Part shown: piece after piece, positions 17,632 through 35,979 of the stretch | Position numbering within the stretch: position 1 is the stretch's first letter | Layout: each line of letters opens with the position of its first letter | From: Peptococcaceae bacterium | GTDB taxonomy: Bacteria; Bacillota; Peptococcia; DRI-13; UBA5745 | DNA: 35,979 bases | Direction: 5' to 3' | Assembly: GCA_031265035.1 (NCBI GenBank) | Contig: JAISDE010000190.1 | Location: 1-35,979, forward strand | Notes under the pieces: model-generated | Database searches by the model: none | What the model was told of the DNA's origin: nothing | What the model saw: the letters and a program-made list of their open reading frames with translations, nothing else | Position numbers and translations under genes: made by a program

Positions 17632-19044
17632 TTACTGAGCCAGCGCGATGCCCAGTTTTTCCGCTATTTCCTCGGCTCTCGCCAGGGAGGGGGAGGCGTC
17701 CCTCAGCACTAGGCGCCCGCCGCCCCGGTTTAGGGTATCCACCATACAGGTCATCTCGTCGGTCTCAATACTGATGATTTGGACGCCGTATTCTTTATTT
17801 TCCTTAATCTCTACGGCGATGCCCATCTCTTTGACCTTATCCGCGGCTTTGCCATACATCTCGTAATCGCCGGTATTGGCGCCAAAAACGGCGCCCATCA
17901 GGATGCCGGGGATATTGATGGCCCGACGGGCAAAGAGCTCGGGATAAAGCTCAACGGTAACTTTTTTGATGTTGCCTTTGGCCAGCTCATGGGCGATCCT
18001 GGCGGCATTGGTGGGAGAGCCTACCGCCTGGCTGGAACCGCCCACCACGGCGTCGCCGTAAGTCTGAAGTATGGGCTTGGTGCCGTTGGCCAGCTTTTTG
18101 GCGATCTCCTTGGCCTTACGTAAGGTCTCTTTGATCTGCTTGTTTTCCGCCGTCTTGACATCTTCGCTGATCAGGGATTCCACATTGGCTTTGCGTTTAA
18201 AGAAGGGCTCCATAAATTCCACCACCGCGGGCACCACGGCTTTGGCGGAAATCTTATGAACCTCGGCGGCCATAGCGATCATCACGTCTATAGGCACATT
18301 GACGGTCATATCCACCAGCATACAAAGGCGGGCGGCGTACATACCGATGAGAACGGCGCCGCCCACATGGGTGACGCAAAGAGCCGGCACCAGCACCCTG
18401 GGGGTGCAGGGATTGGCGATAGTGGGGGAAATAGCCAAAACCATAGCTTTTTCCATCTGCTCGGGGGTAGCGCCTCCCAGGGCCGCGGTAGCGGCGGCGA
18501 TACAGGCGGCGCCGGCGCCAAAGCCTTCCATATTGCAGCCAGTGCTGACCTTGCCTACCCTGAAGATGCCGCCGATTTTCAGGATCAGGGCGGCTATCTC
18601 GGCAATGACGACCTCGTCTATGCCCTCTGTCTGCATGGCTTTGACGAAGCCGGCGTAAGGGCAGGAGTCGCCGGTGCCGGCGCAGGGCCGCAGGCCGATG
18701 CAGTGATTGCCTACCTGAGCCGCCAGCGTATAGAGCAGGGCGTTGTCCAGGAAGGTGTCTTTAAAGCATTTGGCGCCTTTAATCTGATTTAATTGGGAGG
18801 CCACGGTGCCCAAAAGAATGCTCTCACCGTCTTTAAGGCCGATGTCCAGGGCTTTCAGGTTGTGGGCATATTCCTCCATGACTCTCGCGAGTATCTCCTC
18901 CCGGGGCAAATTGAGACGGAGCTCGCTTTCGATCAGAACTACGTCCACTGCCCGGGCATTATGATCGCTGGCCAAAGCCAGCGTCTCCCCAACGGTTAGG
19001 GGCATTTTTTCCTTGATTGCCTCTCTTAATGTCATTGACGCCAT
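17632..19044 (-). CDS. hmd: [4Fe-4S] serine dehydratase-like enzyme, predicted 2-(hydroxymethyl)glutarate dehydratase
   Basis: Serine dehydratase alpha-type motifs RPCAGTGDSCPYAG, STGCNMEGFGAGAACIAAA, NPCTPRVLVPA; position in the nicotinate cluster. Confidence 0.8.
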   Translation of the reverse strand: MASMTLREAIKEKMPLTVGETLALASDHNARAVDVVLIESELRLNLPREEILARVMEEYAHNLKALDIGLKDGESILLGTVASQLNQIKGAKCFKDTFLDNALLYTLAAQVGNHCIGLRPCAGTGDSCPYAGFVKAMQTEGIDEVVIAEIAALILKIGGIFRVGKVSTGCNMEGFGAGAACIAAATAALGGATPEQMEKAMVLAISPTIANPCTPRVLVPALCVTHVGGAVLIGMYAARLCMLVDMTVNVPIDVMIAMAAEVHKISAKAVVPAVVEFMEPFFKRKANVESLISEDVKTAENKQIKETLRKAKEIAKKLANGTKPILQTYGDAVVGGSSQAVGSPTNAARIAHELAKGNIKKVTVELYPELFARRAINIPGILMGAVFGANTGDYEMYGKAADKVKEMGIAVEIKENKEYGVQIISIETDEMTCMVDTLNRGGGRLVLRDASPSLARAEEIAEKLGIALAQ

Positions 19045-19097: not shown

Positions 19098-19967
19098 TTA
19101 CGCCCTGTTGGCGTATTTAGTCTCGATTTCCCGAATCCGGGGCAAGCCGATCAGGTCGTTGAATTGAGGGAAGGGAATCATCCGGTCTATCATGGAGGCG
19201 GTGGTGCCGTCCCTCTTGAGGCCCTCCATCAGATCAATCATGGCTTTAGTGGTGACATAAGTGGAAGCTGTGGGATAGATGACCAGATCATAGCCCAAAG
19301 CCGCTAATTTATGATTGGGCAGGAGGGGCGTGCGGCCGCCCTCCACCATGTTGGCCAAGGTATAAACGGTGATAACCTCATTGATTTTTTTCATTTCTTC
19401 CTCGGATTCGGGCGACTCGATGAAAATAATATCGGCGCCGGCTTCCTGGTAAGCCGCGCCTCGCTCCAGGGCTTCCTCGATGCCATGGACGGTTCGGGCG
19501 TCGGTTCGGGCCATGATCATGAAATCAGGGTCGATTCTGGTATCCGCGGCGGCCTTGATTTTGCCGACCATCTCTTCCTTGGTTATTACCTGGCGGCCTG
19601 TCATATGGCCGCATTTTTTGGGCATCACTTGATCCTCCAATTGGATGACGGCGACGCCGGCCTTCTCGTATTCCCGCACGGCGCGGATGACATTGACAGC
19701 GTTGCCAAAGCCGGTGTCGGCGTCGGCCACGACGGGTACGCCGGAGGCCTCCACAAAAGCGTTGGCCCGGGCCACCATTTCGGACATCGTCATCAAGCCG
19801 ACGTCGGGATCGCCTAGGTGGCTGGCGGATTGACCGTAACCTGTCATATAAACGGCGTCAAAGCCTGTCTTGCCGATGATTTTGGCTGTAAGGGCGTCAT
19901 GAGCGCCGGGAGCGACGATGAGCTTGCCAGATTGAAATAGGTGTTTTAGTTTTTTTCTGCTGTTCAT
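19098..19967 (-). CDS. dml: 2,3-dimethylmalate lyase (isocitrate lyase/PEP mutase superfamily)
   Basis: PGAHDALTAKIIGKTGFDAVYMTGYGQSASHLGDPD, VVADADTGFGN, QLEDQVMPKKCGHM; ATG 19967 with AGAGGA upstream. Confidence 0.88.
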   Translation of the reverse strand: MNSRKKLKHLFQSGKLIVAPGAHDALTAKIIGKTGFDAVYMTGYGQSASHLGDPDVGLMTMSEMVARANAFVEASGVPVVADADTGFGNAVNVIRAVREYEKAGVAVIQLEDQVMPKKCGHMTGRQVITKEEMVGKIKAAADTRIDPDFMIMARTDARTVHGIEEALERGAAYQEAGADIIFIESPESEEEMKKINEVITVYTLANMVEGGRTPLLPNHKLAALGYDLVIYPTASTYVTTKAMIDLMEGLKRDGTTASMIDRMIPFPQFNDLIGLPRIREIETKYANRA

Positions 19968-20005
19968 GTTCCGGAATCCTCTCTTCAGTTTATTATCCAA
20001 CAGAT

Positions 20006-20045
20006 CCTTATGTAATTTTTCAGGTTCTTATGTAATTTTTCAAGA
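20006..20045. repeat. 20-bp tandem duplication (YCTTATGTAATTTTTCARGW) at the 3' end of the MutL-like gene
   Basis: ccttatgtaatttttca (20006-20022) and tcttatgtaatttttca (20026-20042). Confidence 0.9.
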
Positions 20046-21489
20046 AGGAAAGCGCTGAATCGGGAAAATGGCGGGATAAAACTCCCAGGGCGTATAGCAA
20101 ATAATGATCGTCGAAGTGAAAACGGGGATTGACTGGCAATAATGAAATGCCCGGATCCGCCAAAGCTCTCGTCATGATTTCCTGTTTTTCCGCGGTTTTT
20201 GTATGGTAGAAAATGCCGCCCACAGCGAGAACATGCTTTACTGAACGGAGATCCCGGCCTACGGGAGTGCCGGCCGCCAGACCCAAAACGGGGTCGGCCT
20301 CTTTGGCGAAATGGCCGGCGTGGCGGCGCAGAGCCACGGCGACGGCGGAAAGGGCCAGGGCTTTGTCCATAGCCCATTCCCGCTGGTTGGCCGGGATAGA
20401 GGAAGGCTCTTTTTCCATTCTGCGGGTATAGTCCACAACTTCTTCCGGTGTCGCCGGCGGTTCCCGGAGACCCATATCCCTGATTATGGACAAAGGGCCT
20501 ACCGCCTCCGGGATGCCGGTGGCGCTGACTCTGAGGCCCAGGTTGCCTTCCACGGTTCGGTAGGAAAACTGCTTCTCGTTGTTGATCACCAAGCCCCGTT
20601 CTTCCGGCTTCAAATTCTCCAGCTCCGGCAGGGCGGAATGGATATCCGTGGTGGCGCCGCCAATGTCCGCGAGAATCAGGCCGCCGATGCCTTCCTGCTC
20701 ATAAGTGCCTTTGGCTAGCAGCTCGCTGGCTAAAAGAACGGCCCCCGGCGTAGGCATTACGGTTTTGTCCGCCAGCATGGCTTGCAGCCGATCCAGGCCC
20801 TTTGCCTTCGTAATCTGTTTAATGAATTGAGTATGAATGGCTTCTCTGGCCGGCTTGATGTTCAGCTCATGGATGGTAGGCATGATGTTTGGCACCCTGA
20901 CATAGGGGATGCCCGCCGCGTCAAAACGGGCGGCTACCCGGGCTTGGGCGTCTTTGTTGCAGGCTACCACTACCATAGCCTTGCTTTTGATCCGGATAAT
21001 GATCTCGGCATTTTCCAGAACCGATTCCCGGTCGCCGCCGTCGGTGCCGCCGGCCAGCAAAATGATATCCGGCCGGATTTCCCGTAGCGCCTCCTCCCGG
21101 TATGCTAAAGGCTCATCGTAGGAAATTACCTCCATTACCCGGGCGCCGGCGGTCATGGCCACTTCCTTGGCGGCTTTGGCGGTAACCCGGGGCATATAGC
21201 CTAAGGCTACCATCCTGAGGCCCCCCGCGGCGCTGCAAGTGGCGTAGCGCCGTAGATCGGCGCCTAAGCCGACTCCCTGACCGGCTATAGACTGCCGGGC
21301 ATTTTCCGCCCCTAGAAGCACATCCTCCAAGGTGGTAGGGGATTGGCCCCGGGCTAGAAAAAGCAGGCTGCCCGACTCCTCCAGGCGAAAAGCCGTCGCC
21401 TTGGTATAGGTGCTGCCAACATCATAAACAAGCAGATTAGCTTCCTTTACGGTCGGGGCTTTGGGCGCGCTCACGGAATCAAGCTCCAT
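20020..21489 (-). CDS. MutL/GlmL-family protein, putative reactivase of a B12-dependent mutase
   Basis: LLVYDVGSTYTKATAF, LLAGGTDGG, ILADIGGATTDIHSA (ASKHA-fold ATPase motifs); adjacent to mii and mgm. Confidence 0.82.
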   Translation of the reverse strand: MELDSVSAPKAPTVKEANLLVYDVGSTYTKATAFRLEESGSLLFLARGQSPTTLEDVLLGAENARQSIAGQGVGLGADLRRYATCSAAGGLRMVALGYMPRVTAKAAKEVAMTAGARVMEVISYDEPLAYREEALREIRPDIILLAGGTDGGDRESVLENAEIIIRIKSKAMVVVACNKDAQARVAARFDAAGIPYVRVPNIMPTIHELNIKPAREAIHTQFIKQITKAKGLDRLQAMLADKTVMPTPGAVLLASELLAKGTYEQEGIGGLILADIGGATTDIHSALPELENLKPEERGLVINNEKQFSYRTVEGNLGLRVSATGIPEAVGPLSIIRDMGLREPPATPEEVVDYTRRMEKEPSSIPANQREWAMDKALALSAVAVALRRHAGHFAKEADPVLGLAAGTPVGRDLRSVKHVLAVGGIFYHTKTAEKQEIMTRALADPGISLLPVNPRFHFDDHYLLYALGVLSRHFPDSALSFLKNYIRT

Positions 21490-22630
21490 AAATCTTGCCG
21501 GTCTCGACAAAGGCATAGCCTTCCATCAAGCGGCGGGCGGTACGTTCGATGCTGGCCTTCAACACTTCGCCGTCTTTGACGGCGGCGCTTACAGGAATGA
21601 CGCCGGCGGGATGACCGATGCGCACCGTCTCGATGCTGTCGATATGGGGTATACACTGGTTGACGATGGTGCCGGGGATTTTGGCGGCGGCGCCGGTACA
21701 AGCGGTACCGGTACCAGGGTAAGTTTTGTGGAGTACCTGCATAAACATCATGCGGGAGACGAAATCCACTTGGCTTTTCTTGATCGCGCTGCCGGTGGTA
21801 AAGTCCACATAGTCGGCAGCTTCCGCAACAAAAGCGATCATGGGGAAAGCGGGGGAGAGCTTGGTGGCTTCTTCCGGGGTCTTGGCTTTGCCGATAATGA
21901 CGGCGCATTTTGCCCGGATTTCCTCCAGATAGGCCAGAAGATCTTTATTGCCGTTGATCTCCGTAGGATTTTCCGTACCCTTCATGCCGACGTCTTTCGC
22001 CCGGACAAATAGGCACGGGTTGGAGAGATCCACTATGGATACCTCGATGGGCCCCCTGCCGGTTTCCACGATATCTATCGGACTGCCGGTAGGAAGCAGC
22101 TTGCCGGTGGAAGAACCGGCGGTGGCGGCGAAATTCATCAGAATGGGAGCGGCAGTACCGGGAACACCGTCGATTTTGCAATCGCCTTTGACCGCGGATT
22201 TGCCGTCTTTTACCTGAACCTCGGCCACCAGGATCTTGCCGGTATTGGTATTGTGAACGCGGACGGTGGTTACAGGCTCCGCGGCCCGGACGATGGATTC
22301 GTCGATAGCGAAGGGGCCTACGGCGGAAGAAATATTGCCGCAGTTGCCGCTGTAATCGATGACGGTATCGTTGATGCTGACTTGGCCAAAGGTGTAGTCC
22401 ACGTCGGCGTCGGGACGGCTGGGCGGGCCGATAATGGCCAGTTTGCTGGTCAGGGGGTCGGCGCCGGCTAAGCCGTCGATTTGACGGACGTCGGGACTGC
22501 CGAAAATAGCCAGAATGATTTTGTCCCGTATGGATTTGTCGGCGGGCAGATCATTCTCTTTCAGGAAAACAGCTTTGCTGGTGCCGCCTCGCATGAGGAC
22601 GCAAGGAACGCGGAAAATGTCGGATCGCAT
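21479..22630 (-). CDS. mii: 3-methylitaconate Delta-isomerase (PrpF family)
   Basis: FRVPCVLMRGGTSKAVFLKENDLP, DYSGNCGNISSAVGPFAID; ATG 22630 preceded by AAGGAG; directly downstream of mgm. Confidence 0.88.
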   Translation of the reverse strand: MRSDIFRVPCVLMRGGTSKAVFLKENDLPADKSIRDKIILAIFGSPDVRQIDGLAGADPLTSKLAIIGPPSRPDADVDYTFGQVSINDTVIDYSGNCGNISSAVGPFAIDESIVRAAEPVTTVRVHNTNTGKILVAEVQVKDGKSAVKGDCKIDGVPGTAAPILMNFAATAGSSTGKLLPTGSPIDIVETGRGPIEVSIVDLSNPCLFVRAKDVGMKGTENPTEINGNKDLLAYLEEIRAKCAVIIGKAKTPEEATKLSPAFPMIAFVAEAADYVDFTTGSAIKKSQVDFVSRMMFMQVLHKTYPGTGTACTGAAAKIPGTIVNQCIPHIDSIETVRIGHPAGVIPVSAAVKDGEVLKASIERTARRLMEGYAFVETGKIYGA

Positions 22631-22662
22631 ATGGATCAACTCCTTAATCTTATCTTGCTTTC

Positions 22663-24510
22663 TTATCTAGCTTTTTGAGCCAGCAATAGGGCTTCCGTTT
22701 CCCGAATGATCTGATCGGTGTCAGTGCCGGGGCCGTAGAAGGCGTCCACACCCAAAAAGCCGATGCCCTCTTTGGCGATTTTCTCCTCATACATAGCGTG
22801 TTCCTCCTCTTTTTCGGCGATCCGGCCGCCGGCTATGATCAAGGTCTTATCCCGACGCCCCAACTCTTTCAGACGCTGGCCTACCCGGGGAAAGAGGGTT
22901 TGCGCCATGCCCAGCAGGTTGTTGATCCCCACGATCTCGGCGTTGGCCTCGGCCGCTACTTCCGCCACAGTTTCCGGCAGGTTCATGCCCCGCAGGTAAA
23001 TAATGTTGAAGCCGGCCCTCTGGTAAGCTTCCCTTACCAGGTTGATGCCCTGGACGTGAGCGTCGGCGCCCACGGTGCCCAGGACAATAGTCTCCGGCCT
23101 GCTGGCCTTGGCTTCCGGCTCCGCGGTGATATTGTCGATGGAAACCGCTACTCGCGCCGGATCGACGCCCAAGGGGGTGAAGCCTCCAATATAGCGGGTA
23201 ATGCCGTCATGGTCCCGGTGAACCTTGACGTGGCGTTTTAAGTCCCAGCCGCCTGCCCGCTGGCAGTCGAAGACGCCGCTTTTGCCGGCTTCCACGGCTT
23301 TGTCGATCAGATCCTCATCGTTCCATTGCCGCCAAAATTCCGGGGTGATCAGGTCGGGAGTCAGGTTTTTTACACCTAAAGCGGCTTCCAGCACCGCCAT
23401 AGCCTCGCCGAGGATCTCTTTTTTCCTGGCGTCGACGACAGGGGACTCGATGGGCTGGGTATAAATGCCGTCAAAGACATCGCGGGTGGCCCAGATGGAT
23501 TGGCCCATGGAGTCGCCGGTGGGGATGCCCACAGATTCCGCCGCTTTGGGCCGGTAGAAGTGCGCGCCGCCCAGCTTGGCGTTGACGGCCATACGGGCGA
23601 AATGGGCGGATTCGGCGATCAGGTTGGGGGGCGGATTCTGGAAGGTTTCCGGCACGACGATCAGGGATTTGCTCCACATGTTTTCTTTGAAAGCCCGCAT
23701 GACAGCCAAGTCGGCATAGATATTGACGCCGGCGATGTTCATTTGGATGGCGGAAAGCTCCGCCGGCAAGCCGGCGTGAATGGCCAGGCCCTCGGCCATC
23801 AGGCACATGGCCAGGGCCATGCCGTCGGTGCCGCCGATGTTATTTAAATGCTTGTGGGAGTCAAGCTGGACGAAGATATTATTATCGGCGCAGACCTGCA
23901 GAGCCTTATAGCCGTTGACCACCTTGGTTTTGTAGTCGTGAATGCCCCGGCCGCCGAAATGGACGTGGATCACGGGGCCGATATCGGTGCCGTCAAAACC
24001 GGCGATCAAAGCGTTGATGATGGAAAGGTGGGGGGTATCGCCGGTGGCGTTAATCCGCACAGGATGCTTGGCGCCGCCGCCCATTTGGATATAATCCCGC
24101 TCCCCCTTGGGGGTGATGCCGCCTTTGCCCCGGGATTGCTCGATGAGCTCCCGGCCTTTCAAAGGGTCGATATGGCGGGTGGCCTCGGAGTGAACAAAAT
24201 GGAACAGGGTCTCGTCAAATTTTTCGGCGTAAGCGTACATGTTCTGGGACTCTTTCCAGGTCTCCTCACCGGTGTTGCGGCCTAAAATGGGATTTTGCGC
24301 GGGCCAGCCCCGTTTTTCCGCCAATTGGGCCAACTCGTAAATACGGTAGCCGCTACGGGCTACCCCCGCTACCTCCCGGGGATAAGGGGCCGGCAGGCCT
24401 ATGACCTCACCCTTTTCGTCCAGATCCGGCATTTCCACATGGAAAGTGTCGGCATAGGCCCGGACGACCTCAATATCCTCTTTGATGATACGTTTGGTTT
24501 TTTCTTGCAT
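22663..24510 (-). CDS. mgm: 2-methyleneglutarate mutase (coenzyme B12-dependent)
   Basis: 615 aa; C-terminal B12-binding signature [12 protein letters not shown]...GINNLLG; N-terminal mutase barrel; neighbours mii, dmdAB, dml. Confidence 0.9.
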
Positions 24511-24525: not shown

Positions 24526-25017
24526 TCAAGAAATCCCTAATTCTGCCCGCACCCGGGGAATTAAGCCGCCGTAATCCAAGGTTTTTAAAATATTCTCCGA
24601 TAAGGGCTTGAACGCTAGCTGTCCTTGGGGATAACGGATCAGGCCCTTTACCATATCAACCTCAATTATATCACCGTCCCTCAGCGCGCCGGCGATATCG
24701 GCGGCGTACACCGGCAAGCCGATATTGATGGCGTTACGGCGGAAGATCCTGGCAAAGCCGGCGGCGGTCACCAGGCTAATACCGGCCATCTTTAAGGCGA
24801 TGGGCGCTTGCTCCCGGGAAGAACCGCAGCCGAAATTGCGGCCTGCCACAATGATATCTCCCGGCGTTACCCGATTGAGGAAGTCCAGGCCGGGCGCCCC
24901 TGCCATGGCATATTTTCCCAACTGGTCAAAAGGCTCGGCCATCGCGTAACCTGGCAGTATCTGATCCGTATCCACGTCGTCCCCCAGAACAAAGACCCGT
25001 CCTTTTATTACTTCCAT
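24526..25017 (-). CDS. dmdB: 2,3-dimethylmalate dehydratase small subunit (aconitase/LeuD-like)
   Basis: KGRVFVLGDDVDTDQILPGYAM, IIVAGRNFGCGSSREQAPIALK. Confidence 0.88.
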   Translation of the reverse strand: MEVIKGRVFVLGDDVDTDQILPGYAMAEPFDQLGKYAMAGAPGLDFLNRVTPGDIIVAGRNFGCGSSREQAPIALKMAGISLVTAAGFARIFRRNAINIGLPVYAADIAGALRDGDIIEVDMVKGLIRYPQGQLAFKPLSENILKTLDYGGLIPRVRAELGIS

Positions 25018-25070
25018 TCGCTTGTCTCTCCTCATCGCGTCGGCGCGCGGCTTTTCTTTATTTGCATAAT

Positions 25071-26267
25071 TTACAGAGTACCCGGCGCCGTGATCTTGCC
25101 GGTAATCGCGCTGGCGGCGGCTGTGGCCGGTGAGGCCAAGTAGATCCGGCCTTTATTGGCCCCCATGCGCCCGGGAAAATTACGGTTGGTGGTAGCTACC
25201 ACCACGTCCCGGTCGCTGATGATGCCTTCGTGAGCGCCAAAGCAGGGGCCGCAGCCGGGATTCAGCACCGTGGCGCCAGCGTCCCGGATGATTTTGCACC
25301 AGCCTTTTTCCTCCATGGTGTTTAGCGTCTCCCGGGAGGCGGGCACCACCAACGTATTGACGTCCGGGTGAACCTGACGGCCTTTGAGAGTTAAGGCCGC
25401 CTGCTCCATATCATTGACCCGGCCGTTGGTGCAGCTGCCTATTACCACTTGAGTGATGGGCAGGCCGGCCACTGCCTCCACATCGCAGACGTTAGCGGGG
25501 GAAAAGGGCCGGGCGATTTTGGGATTGATGGAGGATAAGTCGATTTCCCGGGTCTCTTCCACTTCCGTCTCTCTATCCGCCGCGCCAAATAAAGTGATCA
25601 TGCCGCCCAACTCCGTGCCCATGTTGCAGACCGTCATCCGCTCCGCTACGGAAAAGCATTGAATACCGGGCCCGGTAATCAGAAGGCCTTTATCCGTTAA
25701 GTAATCGGTGCCAAAAATTTCACCAAGGTAAAGAATGAAATCTTTGCCGAATACGTTTTCTTTCAATTTTCCGGTAAGATAAATTTGCGTCACCGCCGGT
25801 ACTTCCAGATCCAAACGGCCCGTGGCCATGGCGGCGGCCGCCTCGGTGGAGCCTACGCCGACGCCTATAGCGCCGTAACCGCCGCAGGTGCAGGTATGAG
25901 AATCGGCGATGACCACCAGCTCCCCGGGCGCTGCCCGGTGCTTTTCATACATCAACTGGTGGATGACACCCTCGCCTCTCTTGTAAATGGTAATACCGAA
26001 TTCCCGGGCAAAGTCGTCCATGATCCAAAGGCTGTCCCGGGCTTTCTCGGTGGCGGCGGGGTAGATATGATCGACAAACAAAAGAACGCGCTCAGGATCG
26101 AATACCCGATCAACGCCTATTTCCCTAAATTGTTTGATGGCGATAGGAGCGGTCACATCATGGGCCGCCACATAGCTAACCTTGCAGCTGACGTCCATTC
26201 CGGCGCTTACCCTATCCAATCCCGCGGCTTTGGCCAAGTGGGTCTCGATCAGGTTCATGGTTGACAC
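25071..26267 (-). CDS. dmdA: 2,3-dimethylmalate dehydratase large subunit (aconitase/LeuC-like)
   Basis: DSHTCTCGGYGAIGVGVGSTE, GSCTNGRVNDMEQA, NPGCGPCFGAHEG, TTNRNFPGRMG. Confidence 0.88.
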   Translation of the reverse strand: MSTMNLIETHLAKAAGLDRVSAGMDVSCKVSYVAAHDVTAPIAIKQFREIGVDRVFDPERVLLFVDHIYPAATEKARDSLWIMDDFAREFGITIYKRGEGVIHQLMYEKHRAAPGELVVIADSHTCTCGGYGAIGVGVGSTEAAAAMATGRLDLEVPAVTQIYLTGKLKENVFGKDFILYLGEIFGTDYLTDKGLLITGPGIQCFSVAERMTVCNMGTELGGMITLFGAADRETEVEETREIDLSSINPKIARPFSPANVCDVEAVAGLPITQVVIGSCTNGRVNDMEQAALTLKGRQVHPDVNTLVVPASRETLNTMEEKGWCKIIRDAGATVLNPGCGPCFGAHEGIISDRDVVVATTNRNFPGRMGANKGRIYLASPATAAASAITGKITAPGTL

Positions 26268-27658: not shown

Positions 27659-29902
27659 TCAGCTGAGGATTTTTTTCATTACCTCCGCGGGCGTCAGCGG
27701 CAACTCAAAGAACCGCCGGCCCAAAGCGTTTTCCACAGCGTTGGTGATGGCCGGGATACCCGGTATCAAAGCAGGCTCGCCGACGCCTTTGGCGCCGAAG
27801 GGACCGGCCTCTCCAGGACATTCCACGATAATGGGATAAATTTCCGGTACATCCATGGTGGTAGGAATAAGGTATTTGGAGAAGACAGGGTTTTTGATTT
27901 TACCCTTCTCATGCTCGATCTTCTCAAAGATAACGAAGCCTTGAGCCATAACCATGCCGCCCTCGATCTGGCCTTCCACCATAACCCTGTCTATCGCCTG
28001 GCCTACATCGTGGGCGGAAACCAGCTTCAGAGTGTCCACCTCACCGGTGGAGGTATCCACTTCCACTAAAGCTATGGTCACCCCGTAGGAGTAGACCTCA
28101 TAAGGGATACCGGCCATAGTTTTGGCGTCCAGATAGGTGGTTTTGGGGTTGTAAGCGCCGGCGCCTACCGCCAGCTGGCCCCATTTTTTCATTTCCGCCA
28201 TCAACTCGGCATAAGTCATTTTGATGGCTGGATCTTTGGCGCTATAGATCATCCTGCCCCGGAAGATCAAGTATTCCTTGGGAACTTTGAGGAAATTGGC
28301 GGCCGTCTGAGCTAAAGTCTCCTTGGCCTGCCGGCAGGCGATCCTGGTGGCGTTGCCGGAAATAAAGGTCTGGCGGCTGGCGGAGGACGCCCCGCCCTCC
28401 GGCGTCACCATAGTGTCGGCGGCGGTGACGTGAATATCGTCATAGGAAAGTCCCAGTTCTTCGGCGGCGATCAGGGCCATGACGGTAGATGAGCCCTGAC
28501 CGATATCGGCGCAGCCTACCATCAGGTTGACGGAAGCGTCGGGCAATACCTCCACAAAGGCGGCGGCTGGATTGGGCAGGCCGGTGTTGCCCACGCCGTA
28601 CCACATGCAGCCTACACCGACACCTTGATTTTCCTTGACGGTGGTTATAACCTCCGCCGCTTTTTCCTTAGCCGCTCTCAAAGCCCCTATGAAGCCTACG
28701 GACTCATCCAGCGTCTGGCCGGTGGCCAGTACCGTGCCGGGCTTTTGGGCATTGAGAATACGCAAGTCGATGGGATCCATATTGAGGGCTTTAGCCAAAG
28801 CGTTCATCTGGCCTTCATGACATACGGAGACTTGGGGTACGCCAAAGCCGCGGAAAGCGCCGGCCATGGGGTTGTTGGTATAAACGAAATCCGAGTCTAC
28901 CCGGACGTTGGGCACGTCGTAAGGACCCATGCAGTGGACGACGGCTCTGGTGATCACCGCCGGCCCGTAGGAGGCGTAAGCGCCGGTATCGCCGATGATG
29001 AAGACTTCTACCGCTAAAAGCTTGCCATCCTTGGTGGCGCCGGTTTTCGCTCTCATGATCATGGGATGGCGCTTGGCGGAAACGTCGGTGGACTCTTGGC
29101 GGCTTCGGACAATTTTTACCGGTCGGCCCGTGGCGTTGGCCAAAAGGGCCAGATGACACTGAACGGAAATATCCAGCTTGCCGCCGAAGCCGCCGCCTGT
29201 GGCCATCTGCGTTACCCGAACTTTATTGTTGGGCAGGCCCATGGTCCTGGCTACTTCCCCCCGGTCAAAATGGGCGTTTTGGGTAGAGGCGTAAACGGTG
29301 ATGATCCCATCCTCAACCCGGGCCACGCCGGCGTCCGGCTCGATAAACATATGGGTAAGCATATTGGTGGTATAGGTGCCCTCAATGATAACGTCACATC
29401 GCGCGAAAGCCGCGTCCACATCGCCGCGTTCCAAATGCTTGCGAGCGTGGAGGTTGCTGTCGCCGTGGATTTTTGGGCTGCCTTCCCGCATAGCGTCCTC
29501 ATAAGTGAAAACGGGCTCAAGCAGATCGTACTCCACTTCCATCAATTCCAGGGCTTCCTCCGCCAATTCCGGCGTCTCGGCGGCCACCAGCGCTATAGCG
29601 TCGCCTACCCGCCGGACTTTATCATCCACTAGCACAGGCTCATCCTTCATGATGATTCCGATGCGGTTGCCGCCGGGTATATCCTTGGATGTCAGTACGC
29701 GAGCCACGCCGGGCAGGGCCAGGGCCTTGGAGGCGTCGAAGCGCTTGATGACGGCGTGAGGTACCGAGCTACGGAAAACACCGCCGTACAGCATATGATC
29801 AAATTTCAAGTCGGCGGCAAATTTTGTCTCGCCGATAACTTTATTATAGGCGTCCTTTTTGATATTGCTTTTACCAAGGATCGCCAGATCTCGTAATGCC
29901 AT
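27659..29902 (-). CDS. Nicotinate dehydrogenase molybdopterin subunit, one-piece (NdhL + NdhM equivalent)
   Basis: 747 aa xanthine dehydrogenase-family Mo subunit: [51 protein letters not shown] (conserved Glu). Confidence 0.9.
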
Positions 29903-29926: not shown

Positions 29927-30391
29927 TTAATTTCCCGCGGCCATATCCACGGCCCTGAATATTTTAGTGTAGCCGGTGCAGCGGCAGAGATTGCCGGAAA
30001 GAGCCCGCCTGATCTCCTCGCGAGTGGGATGGGGATTTCGCAGCAACAGGGCTTTAGCCGACAAGATCATGCCCGGCGTACAATAACCGCATTGCACGGC
30101 GCCGGCTTCCAGGAAGGCGGCCTGCAATTTATCCAGCTCGCCATCCTTGGCTAAGCCCTCCAGTGTCAGGATACTGTCGCCCTCAATCTGGCCCGCCAGC
30201 ATCAGGCAAGAAGTAACGGGAATATCGTTCACCAAAATAGTGCAGGCGCCGCATTCCCCCTCGCCGCAGCCTTCCTTGACGCTGGTGCACTCGCAATCCT
30301 CCCGCAAAAGGTCTACTACCCGTTTGTTGGGATAAGTTTCCGCCGTTACCGGCGCCCCGTTTAGCGTAAAGTTAATTTTTATTTTATCCAT
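29927..30391 (-). CDS. ndhS: Nicotinate dehydrogenase small subunit (2 x [2Fe-2S])
   Basis: CTSVKEGCGEGECGACTILVND, QCGYCTPGMILSAKALL, GNLCRCTGY. Confidence 0.92.
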   Translation of the reverse strand: MDKIKINFTLNGAPVTAETYPNKRVVDLLREDCECTSVKEGCGEGECGACTILVNDIPVTSCLMLAGQIEGDSILTLEGLAKDGELDKLQAAFLEAGAVQCGYCTPGMILSAKALLLRNPHPTREEIRRALSGNLCRCTGYTKIFRAVDMAAGN

Positions 30392-30393
30392 AG

Positions 30394-31275
30394 TTAGCAT
30401 CCGCCTTCCCCCAGGCCAAAATCCACCAGAATCCGGCCGAAGGTTTTGTCGGAAACGCCTTTAACCCCTTCTCTTTTGTAGGGCATGGAAGCTCTGGTGG
30501 GAATCATGCTTCCAACGATATCCGACAACATGCCGGCGCAAGGCGCGAAAGTATTTTTGCTTACGGGCTTGCCGATCAGGTACTCCTCAACTTTTGGCAA
30601 ACGGGCAGGCTTGGGCGATACGCCGCCGACAACCACCTGAGCCCTGGTAATGCTGTCGGAGTCGTCTTTCTCAACCAATATAGACAAACCGACGACGACG
30701 ATAACCAGAGCCTTTCTTTTGCCCAGCTTCATGGTGGCCGTGGCCACGCCTTTGGCGGGGGCGTCGAAATAGATTTCCGTCAACAACTCGTCGCCGGCAA
30801 TCCGGGTTTTTTTGCGGTCGGCGTAAAAGTCCGTCAACTTCATTTCCCGTTTGCCGGCTTTGCTTCGCAGCACCACGGAAGCGTCCAGGGCCATGAGGGT
30901 AGTTGGGCTGTCGCCGGCTACGGAGCAATTGACCACATTGCCGCCGATGGTGCCCAGATTGCGGATCTGAGGCGAGCCTACATGGGCGCAGCAGGAATGT
31001 AGGCCTTTGACCTTGTCTTTGATGTAAGGATTATTTTCCAAATCGCTGAAGGTGGTCAAGGCGCCGATCCTTACTTGGCCTGCCGCCACTTCGCAGTAAC
31101 GAAGCTCTTTGATTTTATTGATGCTGATTACGCAGTCCGTATTCCTGCGCCGCTCTTTTAGCTCAATGACTATATCGGTTCCGCCGGCGGCCACTGTGGC
31201 GCTCCCCTTATACTGAGCCAGCAACTCCAGCGCCTCCGCGAGGGTTTTGGGTGTATAAAAATTAAATGCTCTCAT
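30394..31275 (-). CDS. ndhF: Nicotinate dehydrogenase FAD subunit
   Basis: FNFYTPKTLAEALELLAQYKGSATVAAGGTDIVIELK, HVGSPQIRNLGTIGGNVVN. Confidence 0.92.
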   Translation of the reverse strand: MRAFNFYTPKTLAEALELLAQYKGSATVAAGGTDIVIELKERRRNTDCVISINKIKELRYCEVAAGQVRIGALTTFSDLENNPYIKDKVKGLHSCCAHVGSPQIRNLGTIGGNVVNCSVAGDSPTTLMALDASVVLRSKAGKREMKLTDFYADRKKTRIAGDELLTEIYFDAPAKGVATATMKLGKRKALVIVVVGLSILVEKDDSDSITRAQVVVGGVSPKPARLPKVEEYLIGKPVSKNTFAPCAGMLSDIVGSMIPTRASMPYKREGVKGVSDKTFGRILVDFGLGEGGC

Positions 31276-31358: not shown

Positions 31359-32249
31359 TTAGCTATTCTTGATCTTTATGCCGGCTAGGTCTTCCCAAAC
31401 TTTGACTACAGCCGAAATATCCTGTCGGTTGAATCCTTTGGCCCGGGCCATCTCAAAAACCTGTGCCGCCGCGGCGGTCAAAGGCAGAGGCGCGGCCACA
31501 TCTTTGGCGGCGTCAAGCGCTAAACCAAGATCCTTGCGCTGCAGATCCACGGCAAAGCCCTTATCAAAGGCGTCGGCCATGATGAATTGGTCGAATTTAG
31601 CCTCCAGAGCGTAAGAGCGGCCGGAACTGACGCCGATCACTTCTTTCATGGTCTCCGCCCTCAGCCCCAGCCTGACGCCCAGGACAAGGGCTTCCGCCAA
31701 CGCCGCCATGCTGACGCCCAAAAGCAAATTGTTGACGATCTTAATGGCGTCGCCGGCGCCGGCTTCCCCAACATGATAAATATTTTTGCCTAATACCCTG
31801 AGAACATCCGAGACTTTTTCGTAAGTCGCCTCATCGCAGCCCACCATGATGGTAAGAGTTCCCGCCGCGGCGCCGGCCACGCCGCCGCTGACAGGCGCGT
31901 CCATATAGACGACGCCGTATCTCTCGGCGGCCTTGGCCATGGCCTTTGTGGAGGCGGGGGCCACGCTGCTCATGTCCATGATGATAGCGCCCGGCTGGCA
32001 GCTTTCCAGGACGCCGCCTTGGCCGGTCATTACCGTCTCGACAATTTTGGCGTTGGGCAATGAGGTGATGATCAAGTCGGCTTTAGCGGCCAACTCCCCG
32101 CCGCCGGCGCAGACTTTGGCGCCCAAGCTTCCCAGCTCTTTGACATTCGCCTCGGACAAATCGTGAACGTAAACCTCGTAGCCGGCGGATAAAAGATTTT
32201 TTGCCATAGGCTTCCCCATGGCGCCTACACCGATAAAACCGATTTTCAT
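31359..32249 (-). CDS. hgd: 2-(hydroxymethyl)glutarate dehydrogenase (3-hydroxyisobutyrate dehydrogenase-like)
   Basis: MKIGFIGVGAMGKPMAKNLLSAGYEVYVHD, DAPVSGGVAGAAAGTLTIMVG, KIVNNLLLG; cluster context. Confidence 0.88.
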   Translation of the reverse strand: MKIGFIGVGAMGKPMAKNLLSAGYEVYVHDLSEANVKELGSLGAKVCAGGGELAAKADLIITSLPNAKIVETVMTGQGGVLESCQPGAIIMDMSSVAPASTKAMAKAAERYGVVYMDAPVSGGVAGAAAGTLTIMVGCDEATYEKVSDVLRVLGKNIYHVGEAGAGDAIKIVNNLLLGVSMAALAEALVLGVRLGLRAETMKEVIGVSSGRSYALEAKFDQFIMADAFDKGFAVDLQRKDLGLALDAAKDVAAPLPLTAAAAQVFEMARAKGFNRQDISAVVKVWEDLAGIKIKNS

Positions 32250-32271
32250 AAGTACCAATCCTTTTTAGTTA

Positions 32272-32358: not shown

Positions 32359-32940
32359 TCAGCGTAAGCCGTCCTCGCCTTTGACCTCGCCGATTTGCAA
32401 GCCGCCGATTCTGGGATGGGGGCGGCCGCCGTCGGTGAAGGCCAGAGCCACTACGATCTCGTCGCATTTGGGAGCGTCGGCGACCCTGACTTCCATAGCG
32501 TCATAGTGCGTGCGGACAAAAGCGGCGTCTTTATAGTGCAAGGGTATGTCCAAGGCCGTACCGGCGGCGCCGGCTTTCTTGGCGGAGGGGATAATGGATT
32601 TGCCGCCGCCGATGGCGTCTCGCATGGGCTTGCCCAGCTTGGGATGCAAGATGGCGGCGCAATGCTCCAATTCTCCGCCCAAGCCGGTGATGGCGCCTTT
32701 GCCGTAGCTGTGTACCTTGCCCGCGCCCAGAATCTTTACGGCTTCTTTGGAGAGATAATCCCCCAGCCATTCGCCGATCTCGGTGAGCTCGGACAGATCC
32801 TCCCGATATTTGCCGGCGCAGGGATTTTTGATAACGGCGGCCACAGAGACCCGGCGCAGGGGTTTTTCCAGATCGGCAAAGCCCTCGTAACGGATTTCCT
32901 CAACACAGGCGACAATTTTTCTGATTTTAGGTTCCAACAT
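32359..32940 (-). CDS. Amino acid synthesis (AA_synth/DUF1185) family protein, function unknown
   Basis: IRKIVACVEEIRYEGFADLEKPLRRVSVAAVIKNPCAGKY, GKGAITGLGGELEHCAAILHPKLGKPMRDAIGGGKSIIPSAKKAG. Confidence 0.75.
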   Translation of the reverse strand: MLEPKIRKIVACVEEIRYEGFADLEKPLRRVSVAAVIKNPCAGKYREDLSELTEIGEWLGDYLSKEAVKILGAGKVHSYGKGAITGLGGELEHCAAILHPKLGKPMRDAIGGGKSIIPSAKKAGAAGTALDIPLHYKDAAFVRTHYDAMEVRVADAPKCDEIVVALAFTDGGRPHPRIGGLQIGEVKGEDGLR

Positions 32941-33879: not shown

Positions 33880-35376
33880 TCAAAGATCGCCTTTTAGGGT
33901 TTTAGCGTCCTTGACTTGATCCATATGGCCGCCGATATTCTCGTAATCCGATAGCCTCATGGTATACTCCACTGGCGCCACGGTAGCGGGGGTGGGTACC
34001 CAGCTGAAGCCGTTGGCCACTACCTGCTCGGTATCGATGATAAAGTTGATGCCGCCGCCAGGCAGAATAAAGGTGGGGGCGCCGCCGATGGTCAGCACGG
34101 CTTTGCCGGCGTGGACGGCTTGGGAGAGGGCCAGGGGTTTTTTGCAGACGCCGCCCCGGGCGCTGCCGCCGGTACCGCCGGTATACATCACCGAGCAGCG
34201 GGATTCCTCGCAGGCTTCATTGATGGCCTTGGGTACCCTCAGGGCCTTTTCCGTCATGGGAATAGATTTGACCTCACCGTCAGCGCCCAGCTCAAAGAGC
34301 TCATAAATCTCGCCGGTGGTGTTGAGTACCAGTATTTGTATGCCGGGCTTGGCCACAGACATATCCACACTTTTGATGGCGTCCCGGCAGCTCATCAGCG
34401 TAGTGCCGCCGATGCCGTCGCCATGCTCGCCAAAATAACGGCCGCGGGAACTCTTGACGGCGTTGGGCGTCACGCCGCTCCAGGAAAGCCCGATGGCGGC
34501 GCCGGCCAGATGCTCGGTGCATAAGCCGATGACATGATGGTCAATAACCAGGCATTCGTCTACGCATTCTTTCATCAGGTTGGCGAAAAGACCGACGGTG
34601 GCGCTGCCGCAGCCCAGCCGCATTTTCTTTTCCTGAACGCCGTTGATCACGGGGGCTTTCCCAGCCCGCATACGAATTTTATACTTTTTATCCACGGAAA
34701 CTTCCACTTCCTGGCCATTGGCCAACTCCACGATCGTCCGGGCTGTCATGAAGCCGCCGTCGCCGGTGAGCCGGTTGGCGCCGCCGATGGCGATCATTTT
34801 GGAGCCGTACTCCTCCGTATTGACCATGCCAATGACCTTGCCGTCCCGGTAGACTTTAGCGCCTTCCTCACCGATATAGCTGTTGGTGTCCAGCTTAACG
34901 ATAAGGCCGCTATAGCTCAAAGGCGCCTCCGTTACTACCGTGACCACGTCAGCGCCCCCTCGGCTTTCCCTGACGATATGGGGAGCGGGCAGGGAGCAGG
35001 GGTAGTTGGCGCCGCCGCCCACGGCGGTGATGATGGGCCGGCGAATATTTTCATCGGGGAATACCAAAGCCTTGGGTTCCAGGACATGCTCCCGGGTTCT
35101 TTCCAGTCTGCCGTTTTTATTGGCGTAACGCTTGCAGGCGCCGGTAGCGCCTTCCGGTACCCGGCATTGAATAGGGCAGTTGCCGCATATCGCGGCGGCA
35201 GCCGGTAATTCGTCGGTTTTAGCTAAAGCTTTGAAAGGGCAAGCCCGCAGACAAATACCGCATTGCGCGCAGCTGTCTTTGATTTTTAGGGTTTTGCCAT
35301 CTAAAGACAAAGCGTCCGTAGGGCAGTTTTTTACGCAAATACCGCAGCTTTTACAGTTTTCATTGACAATGATCAC
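33880..35376 (-). CDS. hnr: 6-hydroxynicotinate reductase
   Basis: N-terminal 2x[4Fe-4S] ferredoxin domain CKSCGICVKNCPTDAL/CAQCGICLRACPFKAL plus extra Cys cluster CGNCPIQC; 498 aa; next to ena and ndh genes. Confidence 0.88.
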   Translation of the reverse strand: MIIVNENCKSCGICVKNCPTDALSLDGKTLKIKDSCAQCGICLRACPFKALAKTDELPAAAAICGNCPIQCRVPEGATGACKRYANKNGRLERTREHVLEPKALVFPDENIRRPIITAVGGGANYPCSLPAPHIVRESRGGADVVTVVTEAPLSYSGLIVKLDTNSYIGEEGAKVYRDGKVIGMVNTEEYGSKMIAIGGANRLTGDGGFMTARTIVELANGQEVEVSVDKKYKIRMRAGKAPVINGVQEKKMRLGCGSATVGLFANLMKECVDECLVIDHHVIGLCTEHLAGAAIGLSWSGVTPNAVKSSRGRYFGEHGDGIGGTTLMSCRDAIKSVDMSVAKPGIQILVLNTTGEIYELFELGADGEVKSIPMTEKALRVPKAINEACEESRCSVMYTGGTGGSARGGVCKKPLALSQAVHAGKAVLTIGGAPTFILPGGGINFIIDTEQVVANGFSWVPTPATVAPVEYTMRLSDYENIGGHMDQVKDAKTLKGDL

Positions 35377-35446: not shown

Positions 35447-35979
35447 TTATAAAATTTTGGCCTGGCGGGTGGCGGGCGGCGTATTGCGGCTCTTGTTGAC
35501 CTTCACCGCGCCGTCGATGACGACGACGCTGACGCCGGGAATATCGCCGGCGGCGATGGCGCCCAAAGCGTCCCCGGCGACGGAGCCCAGGGGAGCGTCC
35601 ATGATCACCAGATCGGCCTCTTTACCCGGGGCGATAATACCGGTGTTCAGCCCATAGACCTTGGCGGTATTGCCGGTGGCCATGCAGATCGCCTGCTCGG
35701 GAGCGACGCCGGATATGGAAGCGATTTGGCAGATGTTTCGCAGAATGCCCAAAGGAATCAGGCCGGTGCCGGAAGGGGCGTCGTTGCCGAAAATGATCCG
35801 GGGGAGCATACCCTTTGCCTGAGCCCGGCGGGCTACATAATCCGCTACCTTGGGATTGCCGCACTGCACGATTTCCAGGGCGAATTCCGTCTCGTCCATG
35901 ATCCGGTCAACTTCCCGCTGGGAGATAGCGGTGGGCCCGCCGTTGATATGAGAGACCACATCGGGTTTTGTGGCGATGA
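35447..35979 (-). CDS. ena: Enamidase (amidohydrolase family), C-terminal part; N-terminus beyond right edge
   Basis: IATKPDVVSHINGGPTAISQREVDRIMDETEFALEIVQCGNPKVADYVARR...FGNDAPSGTGLIPLG...TGNTAKVYGLNTGIIAPGKEADLVIMDAP; frame open to the window end. Confidence 0.85.
   Translation of the reverse strand, partial: IATKPDVVSHINGGPTAISQREVDRIMDETEFALEIVQCGNPKVADYVARRAQAKGMLPRIIFGNDAPSGTGLIPLGILRNICQIASISGVAPEQAICMATGNTAKVYGLNTGIIAPGKEADLVIMDAPLGSVAGDALGAIAAGDIPGVSVVVIDGAVKVNKSRNTPPATRQAKIL

Follow-up and report, generated by a model that had tools for sequence, protein, structure and literature searches.

The locus raises two linked questions: whether the molybdopterin (Mo) subunit of a nicotinate dehydrogenase, which in E. 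barkeri consists of the two chains NdhL and NdhM, is encoded here as one chain, and whether such a chain represents an ancestral unsplit form or a re-fusion. In the xanthine oxidase family the Mo subunit is normally a single chain, and the split Mo subunit has been described as a peculiarity of the E. barkeri nicotinate dehydrogenase. In the part of the literature searched, we found no description of a fused NdhLM of the E. barkeri class. The gene in question, ndhLM, lies in a window (the whole stretch of DNA that was analysed) of 35,979 nucleotides.

The gene occupies 27659..29902 on the minus strand, a strand left unstated when the initial annotation reported a single uninterrupted ORF of 747 aa. 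Read from 29902 to 27659, the frame runs from ATG to stop over 747 codons with zero internal stops. In a phmmer comparison with the PDB, the best match was 3hrd_A (NdhL, 425 aa; residues 4-419 of ndhLM, 618 bits), followed by 3hrd_B (NdhM, 330 aa; residues 425-743, 432 bits), and the chain lengths given in the initial annotation, about 425 and 330 aa, are right by these two entries. Chains A and B of 3HRD, with which an alignment had been suggested, are both covered end to end and collinearly. The protein contains the Pfam domains Ald_Xan_dh_C, MoCoBD_1 and MoCoBD_2, and the motifs GGGFGG, AFRGFG and GVGEPAL start at residues 236, 349 and 706, respectively, the last being the C-terminal motif already pointed out in the initial annotation.

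The NdhL-equivalent part (residues 1-419; 28646..29902, minus strand), defined by its alignment to 3hrd_A, reaches as far as EV[IL]/EVM, which is also where split NdhL chains terminate. The NdhM-equivalent part (residues 427-747; 27662..28624, minus strand), as aligned to 3hrd_B, includes Y435 (Tyr13M) and E709. The fusion junction, TTVKENQ (residues 420-426; 28645-28625, i.e., 28625..28645 on the minus strand), was found where a bridge between the two halves had been expected, near residue ~420 and nucleotide ~28640. In the AlphaFold2 model (mean pLDDT 85, pTM 0.84), the junction lies in a loop between helix 404-418 and strand 426-436; residues 419-425 form a short loop, with a block mean confidence of 91-93. 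The model matches unsplit relatives over its full length (TM 0.92 to 1rm6) and 3hrd_A with a TMt of 0.95.

A search of 84,980 genomes for relatives yielded 20 loci. Four of them have the fused form: L009 and L010 (88-89% identical to ndhLM), L011 (72%) and L012 (79%, the contig ending at residue 631). The fused form occurs in the window's family, a Family XIII bacterium and a Treponema. In the two cases most distant from ndhLM, 6-hydroxynicotinate reductase (Hnr) is likewise encoded, elsewhere in the genome. Split relatives come from E. barkeri, E. aggregans, Acetobacterium, Hespellia, Oscillospiraceae and a Negativicutes MAG, the E. barkeri locus (L019) being 66% identical over the NdhL half and 63% over the NdhM half. 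The split form also occurs within the window's own family, in two genomes (L032, L033) whose genes are about 75% and 72% identical over the two halves. The split lies at one and the same point in all 18 other enzymes found of the ndhLM clade. L025 and L028, 36-38% identical, served as outgroups. No further close orthologues were found in the orders and classes around G086, G067, G093 and G227, and a plasmid search returned relatives of ndhLM at 39% identity or less only.

Compared with the E. barkeri enzyme, a seven-residue junction replaces the NdhL tail, the stop and the NdhM start, and KKRG is missing in the window's chain. Most split NdhL chains terminate on EVM/EVL or no more than about twelve residues away from it, and split NdhM mostly starts with MKKRG.GVG or MKRRG.GVG. 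At the junction, the fused chains have EV[IL][12 protein letters not shown], DTCKENQ, DPCKENQ, HPGKKNQ or RATKPTQ. Between two fixed anchors, all five fused proteins have 53 residues, as opposed to 58-69 in other unsplit relatives, apart from one badly aligned unsplit paralogue (L005) with 50; the linker between the halves is therefore longer in the unsplit relatives measured than in ndhLM. Furthermore, KKRG has been lost in the fused five, whereas most other unsplit relatives have a basic motif of this kind before the conserved glycine. The motif is not strict, since the split Hespellia gene (L026) has IRQG there. Because of the shorter anchor distance and the loss of KKRG, the fused junction is derived: it looks as if the end of NdhL had been attached to the beginning of NdhM, and does not resemble the old linker.

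The initial annotation had left the choice between an ancestral unsplit form and a re-fusion open. The trees and the junction favour the second and disfavour the first: the fused clade is nested, its junction is derived, and secondary re-fusion is clearly the preferred reading. In the tree of the Mo subunit (LM tree), built with unsplit hydroxylases as had been proposed, the five fused proteins fall into a single clade (100/99), which is embedded among split enzymes of nicotinate clusters. The fused five and 14 split genes group together, followed by Hespellia (split) and then by L034, L027 and L031 with L035; the former three are split and lie within nicotinate clusters, and L035 is unsplit and has neither Hnr nor enamidase (Ena) nearby. 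In the independent NdhS+NdhF tree, the fused clade adjoins the split genes that belong to the window's family (93/98), and in the concatenated LM+S+F tree, from which the junction columns had been removed, it is sister to them (93/96). The LM and the S+F trees disagree on the sister group of the fused clade, and the NdhL half alone gives no resolution here; with the concatenated data, the AU test did not reject the other placement of the split own-family genes (p 0.09). A chimeric origin of the two halves was also considered and rejected, as the fused proteins fall into one and the same crown group in the separate N- and C-half trees, the N half giving no resolution within it.

The alternative that survives best is that the fused clade retains the ancestral unsplit form and that independent splits took place in Hespellia, in the Eubacteriaceae/Oscillospiraceae/own-family lineages and in the L027/L031/L034 lineage. 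Unweighted parsimony on the nicotinate clade of the LM tree gives a tie, three changes either way, because the unsplit L035 falls inside this clade on a long branch, and the state of the wider family is unsplit. Moreover, the split of the distant L038-L041 falls at this very position, which may therefore be prone to fission; as the wider family has gone back and forth between the split and unsplit states several times, it is conceivable that a weak point was broken more than once. Nevertheless, the concatenated tree requires six changes if re-fusion is forbidden and four if it is allowed. A model allowing re-fusion is better than a fission-only model by 2.8 log units on the LM tree and by 4.7 on the concatenated tree (lnL -10.2 vs -15.0). 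The probability of a split state at the node that unites fused with split genes is 0.92-0.93 on the LM tree under symmetric rates, and that of a split ancestor is 0.96-0.99 on the concatenated tree. A topology with the fused genes basal is weakly rejected (AU p 0.023 for LM, 0.048 for concatenated data), these being modest p-values among several tests run. As the fused junction is also unlike that of the other unsplit relatives, we regard the ancestral form as improbable, though still a serious competitor.

According to the preferred reading, re-fusion, L and M would already have been separate genes in the common ancestor of the close nicotinate-cluster enzymes. The ancestor of the fused clade would then have lost, in one event, the stop codon of L and the start codon of M, so that a short loop connected the chains again. 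We consider it likely that a fission was thereby reversed at its original breakpoint through a new, shorter linker, with the fused form now present in three lineages and at least four to six state changes at this one point.

Several lines of evidence bear on what the fused protein does. The predicted catalytic features are all kept: Tyr13M (Y435), for which binding of the nicotinate ring nitrogen has been proposed (PMC5746545), the AFRGFG loop (349-354, numbered identically in NdhL; PMC8305194) and the catalytic Glu (E709), the counterpart of NdhM residue 289 in the alignment. Nicotinate-cluster enzymes retain Tyr13M, which is missing from those paralogues in the window's genome that were checked. 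The genome also has yqeB, yqeC and selD, for selenium-hydroxylase maturation and the selenium cofactor, with scores above cut-off, and from these genes the enzyme is probably selenium-dependent. With its re-fusion history included, we hold with good confidence that ndhLM would be the substrate-binding molybdopterin subunit of an E. barkeri-class nicotinate dehydrogenase, with NdhL and NdhM as one chain. The likely reaction is the hydroxylation of nicotinate to 6-hydroxynicotinate, with which nicotinate fermentation begins, because the cluster is E. barkeri-like, the active-site residues are conserved and the selenium-hydroxylase maturation genes are in the genome. The joining of NdhL and NdhM was probably without change of function.

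The gene lies within an almost complete nicotinate-fermentation cluster, a minus-strand run whose content matches that of the E. barkeri cluster; all coordinates that follow are on this strand. Next to ndhLM are ndhS, for the 2[2Fe-2S] subunit (29927..30400; best PDB match 3hrd_D, 208 bits), and ndhF, for the FAD subunit (30394..31275; best match 3hrd_C, 233 bits, next 103). NdhLM, NdhS and NdhF should form a three-subunit enzyme; like the nicotinate dehydrogenase identity, this prediction of the initial annotation has gained support from sequence, synteny, active-site residues and the tree. Of the three, NdhF is far less conserved, with 44% identity to E. barkeri compared with 66% for NdhS and about 65% for NdhLM.

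Further upstream in the run lie hgd, for 2-(hydroxymethyl)glutarate dehydrogenase (31359..32258; best match 3cky, 381 bits, next 216), a PF06684 (AA_synth) protein of 193 aa (32359..32940) and a UPF0280-like protein (PRK04334; 32968..33849). The latter two recur in nearly all nicotinate clusters examined, beyond the assignable pathway steps. They are followed by what we take, from knowledge of the pathway, to be hnr, for 6-hydroxynicotinate reductase (33880..35376; 65% to the gene in the E. barkeri ndh locus, with an N-terminal 4Fe-4S domain), and by ena, for enamidase, of which the C-terminal 176 aa are present before it runs off the window (35447..35977; only PDB match 2vun enamidase, residues 211-386, 304 bits).

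On the other side, a membrane protein of the PTS_EIIC_2 family (PF13303; 26414..27604) adjoins the ndh genes; being recurrent beside them in many clusters, it is a candidate nicotinate transporter. Beyond it are the presumed large and small subunit genes of (R)-2,3-dimethylmalate dehydratase, named from pathway knowledge as dmdA-like (25071..26267; homologues downstream of ndh in L009, L010, L017 and L063) and dmdB-like (24526..25035; by cluster comparison). Then come putative mgm, for B12-dependent 2-methyleneglutarate mutase (22663..24510; B12-binding C-terminal domain, 73% to the E. barkeri gene), mii, for 3-methylitaconate isomerase (21479..22639; best match 3g7k, 594 bits, next 244), and a MutL-family protein linked to the mutase (PF13941 and cluster comparison; 20020..21516). 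The run continues with putative dml, for 2,3-dimethylmalate lyase (19098..20000; PEP_mutase/ICL family, 80% to a partial E. barkeri gene), and a serine-dehydratase-like gene, probably for 2-(hydroxymethyl)glutarate dehydratase (17632..19044; present in the clusters of L013-L017, L022, L023, L027 and L062). Homologues of Hnr, Mgm, MutL and Dml are all found in the E. barkeri locus.

It is very improbable that ndhLM is a different hydroxylase, for purine, xanthine or aldehyde, with a superficial likeness to nicotinate dehydrogenase. The best NCBIfam models for it are indeed those of xanthine dehydrogenase, and its own genome encodes seven further molybdenum-hydroxylase paralogues. However, every NCBIfam score is far below the curated cut-off, and identity is 61-67% to E. 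barkeri-type enzymes compared with 33-40% to these paralogues. Greater similarity to another hydroxylase, named in the initial annotation as grounds for doubt, was not what we found: the best match in the PDB other than nicotinate dehydrogenase was 4-hydroxybenzoyl-CoA reductase, with 315 bits against the 618 and 432 of NdhL and NdhM. Hnr and Ena are encoded in the same gene run, and Tyr13M follows the nicotinate-cluster enzymes and not the paralogues. A purine or xanthine hydroxylase was thus rejected on identity, tree, synteny and Tyr13M, and the fused gene should not be annotated as xanthine dehydrogenase, as profile libraries would suggest.

The fusion itself recurs. In all five fused genes, the junction is crossed in frame with an equal number of codons, and the junction codons have diverged but never shifted. 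The same frame in L009, L010, L011 and L012 is therefore neither chance nor assembly error. That an assembly or polishing artefact removed a stop and start at the junction is scarcely credible and was rejected: the source is a fragmented draft genome (247 contigs, 85% complete), but four further independent assemblies have the same in-frame junction with equal length and diverged codons, and at the point where NdhM begins in split genes, the window's gene is without an in-frame start codon. A residual separate NdhM start was likewise discarded, as the nearest in-frame ATG, at residue 433, would remove the start of the M part.

With respect to known systems, the window's enzyme agrees with E. 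barkeri NdhFSLM (3HRD) in its collinearity over both Mo chains, the adjacent NdhS and NdhF partners, the active-site residues, the pathway cluster (Hnr, Ena, Hgd, Mgm, Mii) and the selenium-maturation genes of its genome. It differs in having NdhL and NdhM as one chain instead of two, E. barkeri having a four-subunit enzyme. The one-chain Mo subunit is a structural variant of the E. barkeri class, and the two-chain state does not define the reaction. The nicotinate dehydrogenase purified from Bacillus niacini also has three subunits, of 20, 34 and 85 kDa (PMC10331938). Compared by description, it shares with the window's enzyme one Mo chain plus FeS and FAD chains and the same reaction, but it has been assigned to a separate class of nicotinate hydroxylase (PMC5746545). 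Unsplit Mo subunits of the xanthine oxidase family, including 4-hydroxybenzoyl-CoA reductase and xanthine dehydrogenase, share the single chain and the full-length fold; however, they are about 25-31% identical and act on other substrates.

The initial annotation was right that E. barkeri has a split Mo subunit, but the rarity it implied has to be qualified: the wider family is mostly unsplit, the B. niacini enzyme has three subunits, and the split also occurs outside nicotinate clusters. Specifically, the Mo subunits of L038, L039, L040 and L041, 43-45% identical, are split at the NdhL/NdhM position with no Hnr or Ena homologue nearby; therefore, the split is not specific to nicotinate dehydrogenase. 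Among nicotinate-fermenting anaerobes it occurs widely and at one fixed point; other enzymes have it too, and one clade has probably reversed it. Fused and split enzymes, about 63-75% identical, form a natural pair with which the role of the split in cofactor insertion, selenium loading and stability could be tested.

The Treponema MAG (G460) has, besides its fused gene (L012, 4142 bp; 79%), an 80% identical Hnr on another contig, which points either to transfer of the pathway to a spirochaete or to mis-binned contigs. In the Hespellia assembly (L026, G461), Hnr is in two pieces on two contigs (residues 2-306 and 305-496); this could reflect either an interrupted gene or simply contig ends that fall within it. 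The unsplit NDH-like Mo subunits at L025:8001-11677 and L028:5068-8684 (36-38%), from SAR324 and Rhodospirillaceae MAGs, adjoin Hnr-like (39-40%) and UPF0280-like genes, suggesting a possible related N-heterocycle pathway outside Bacillota.
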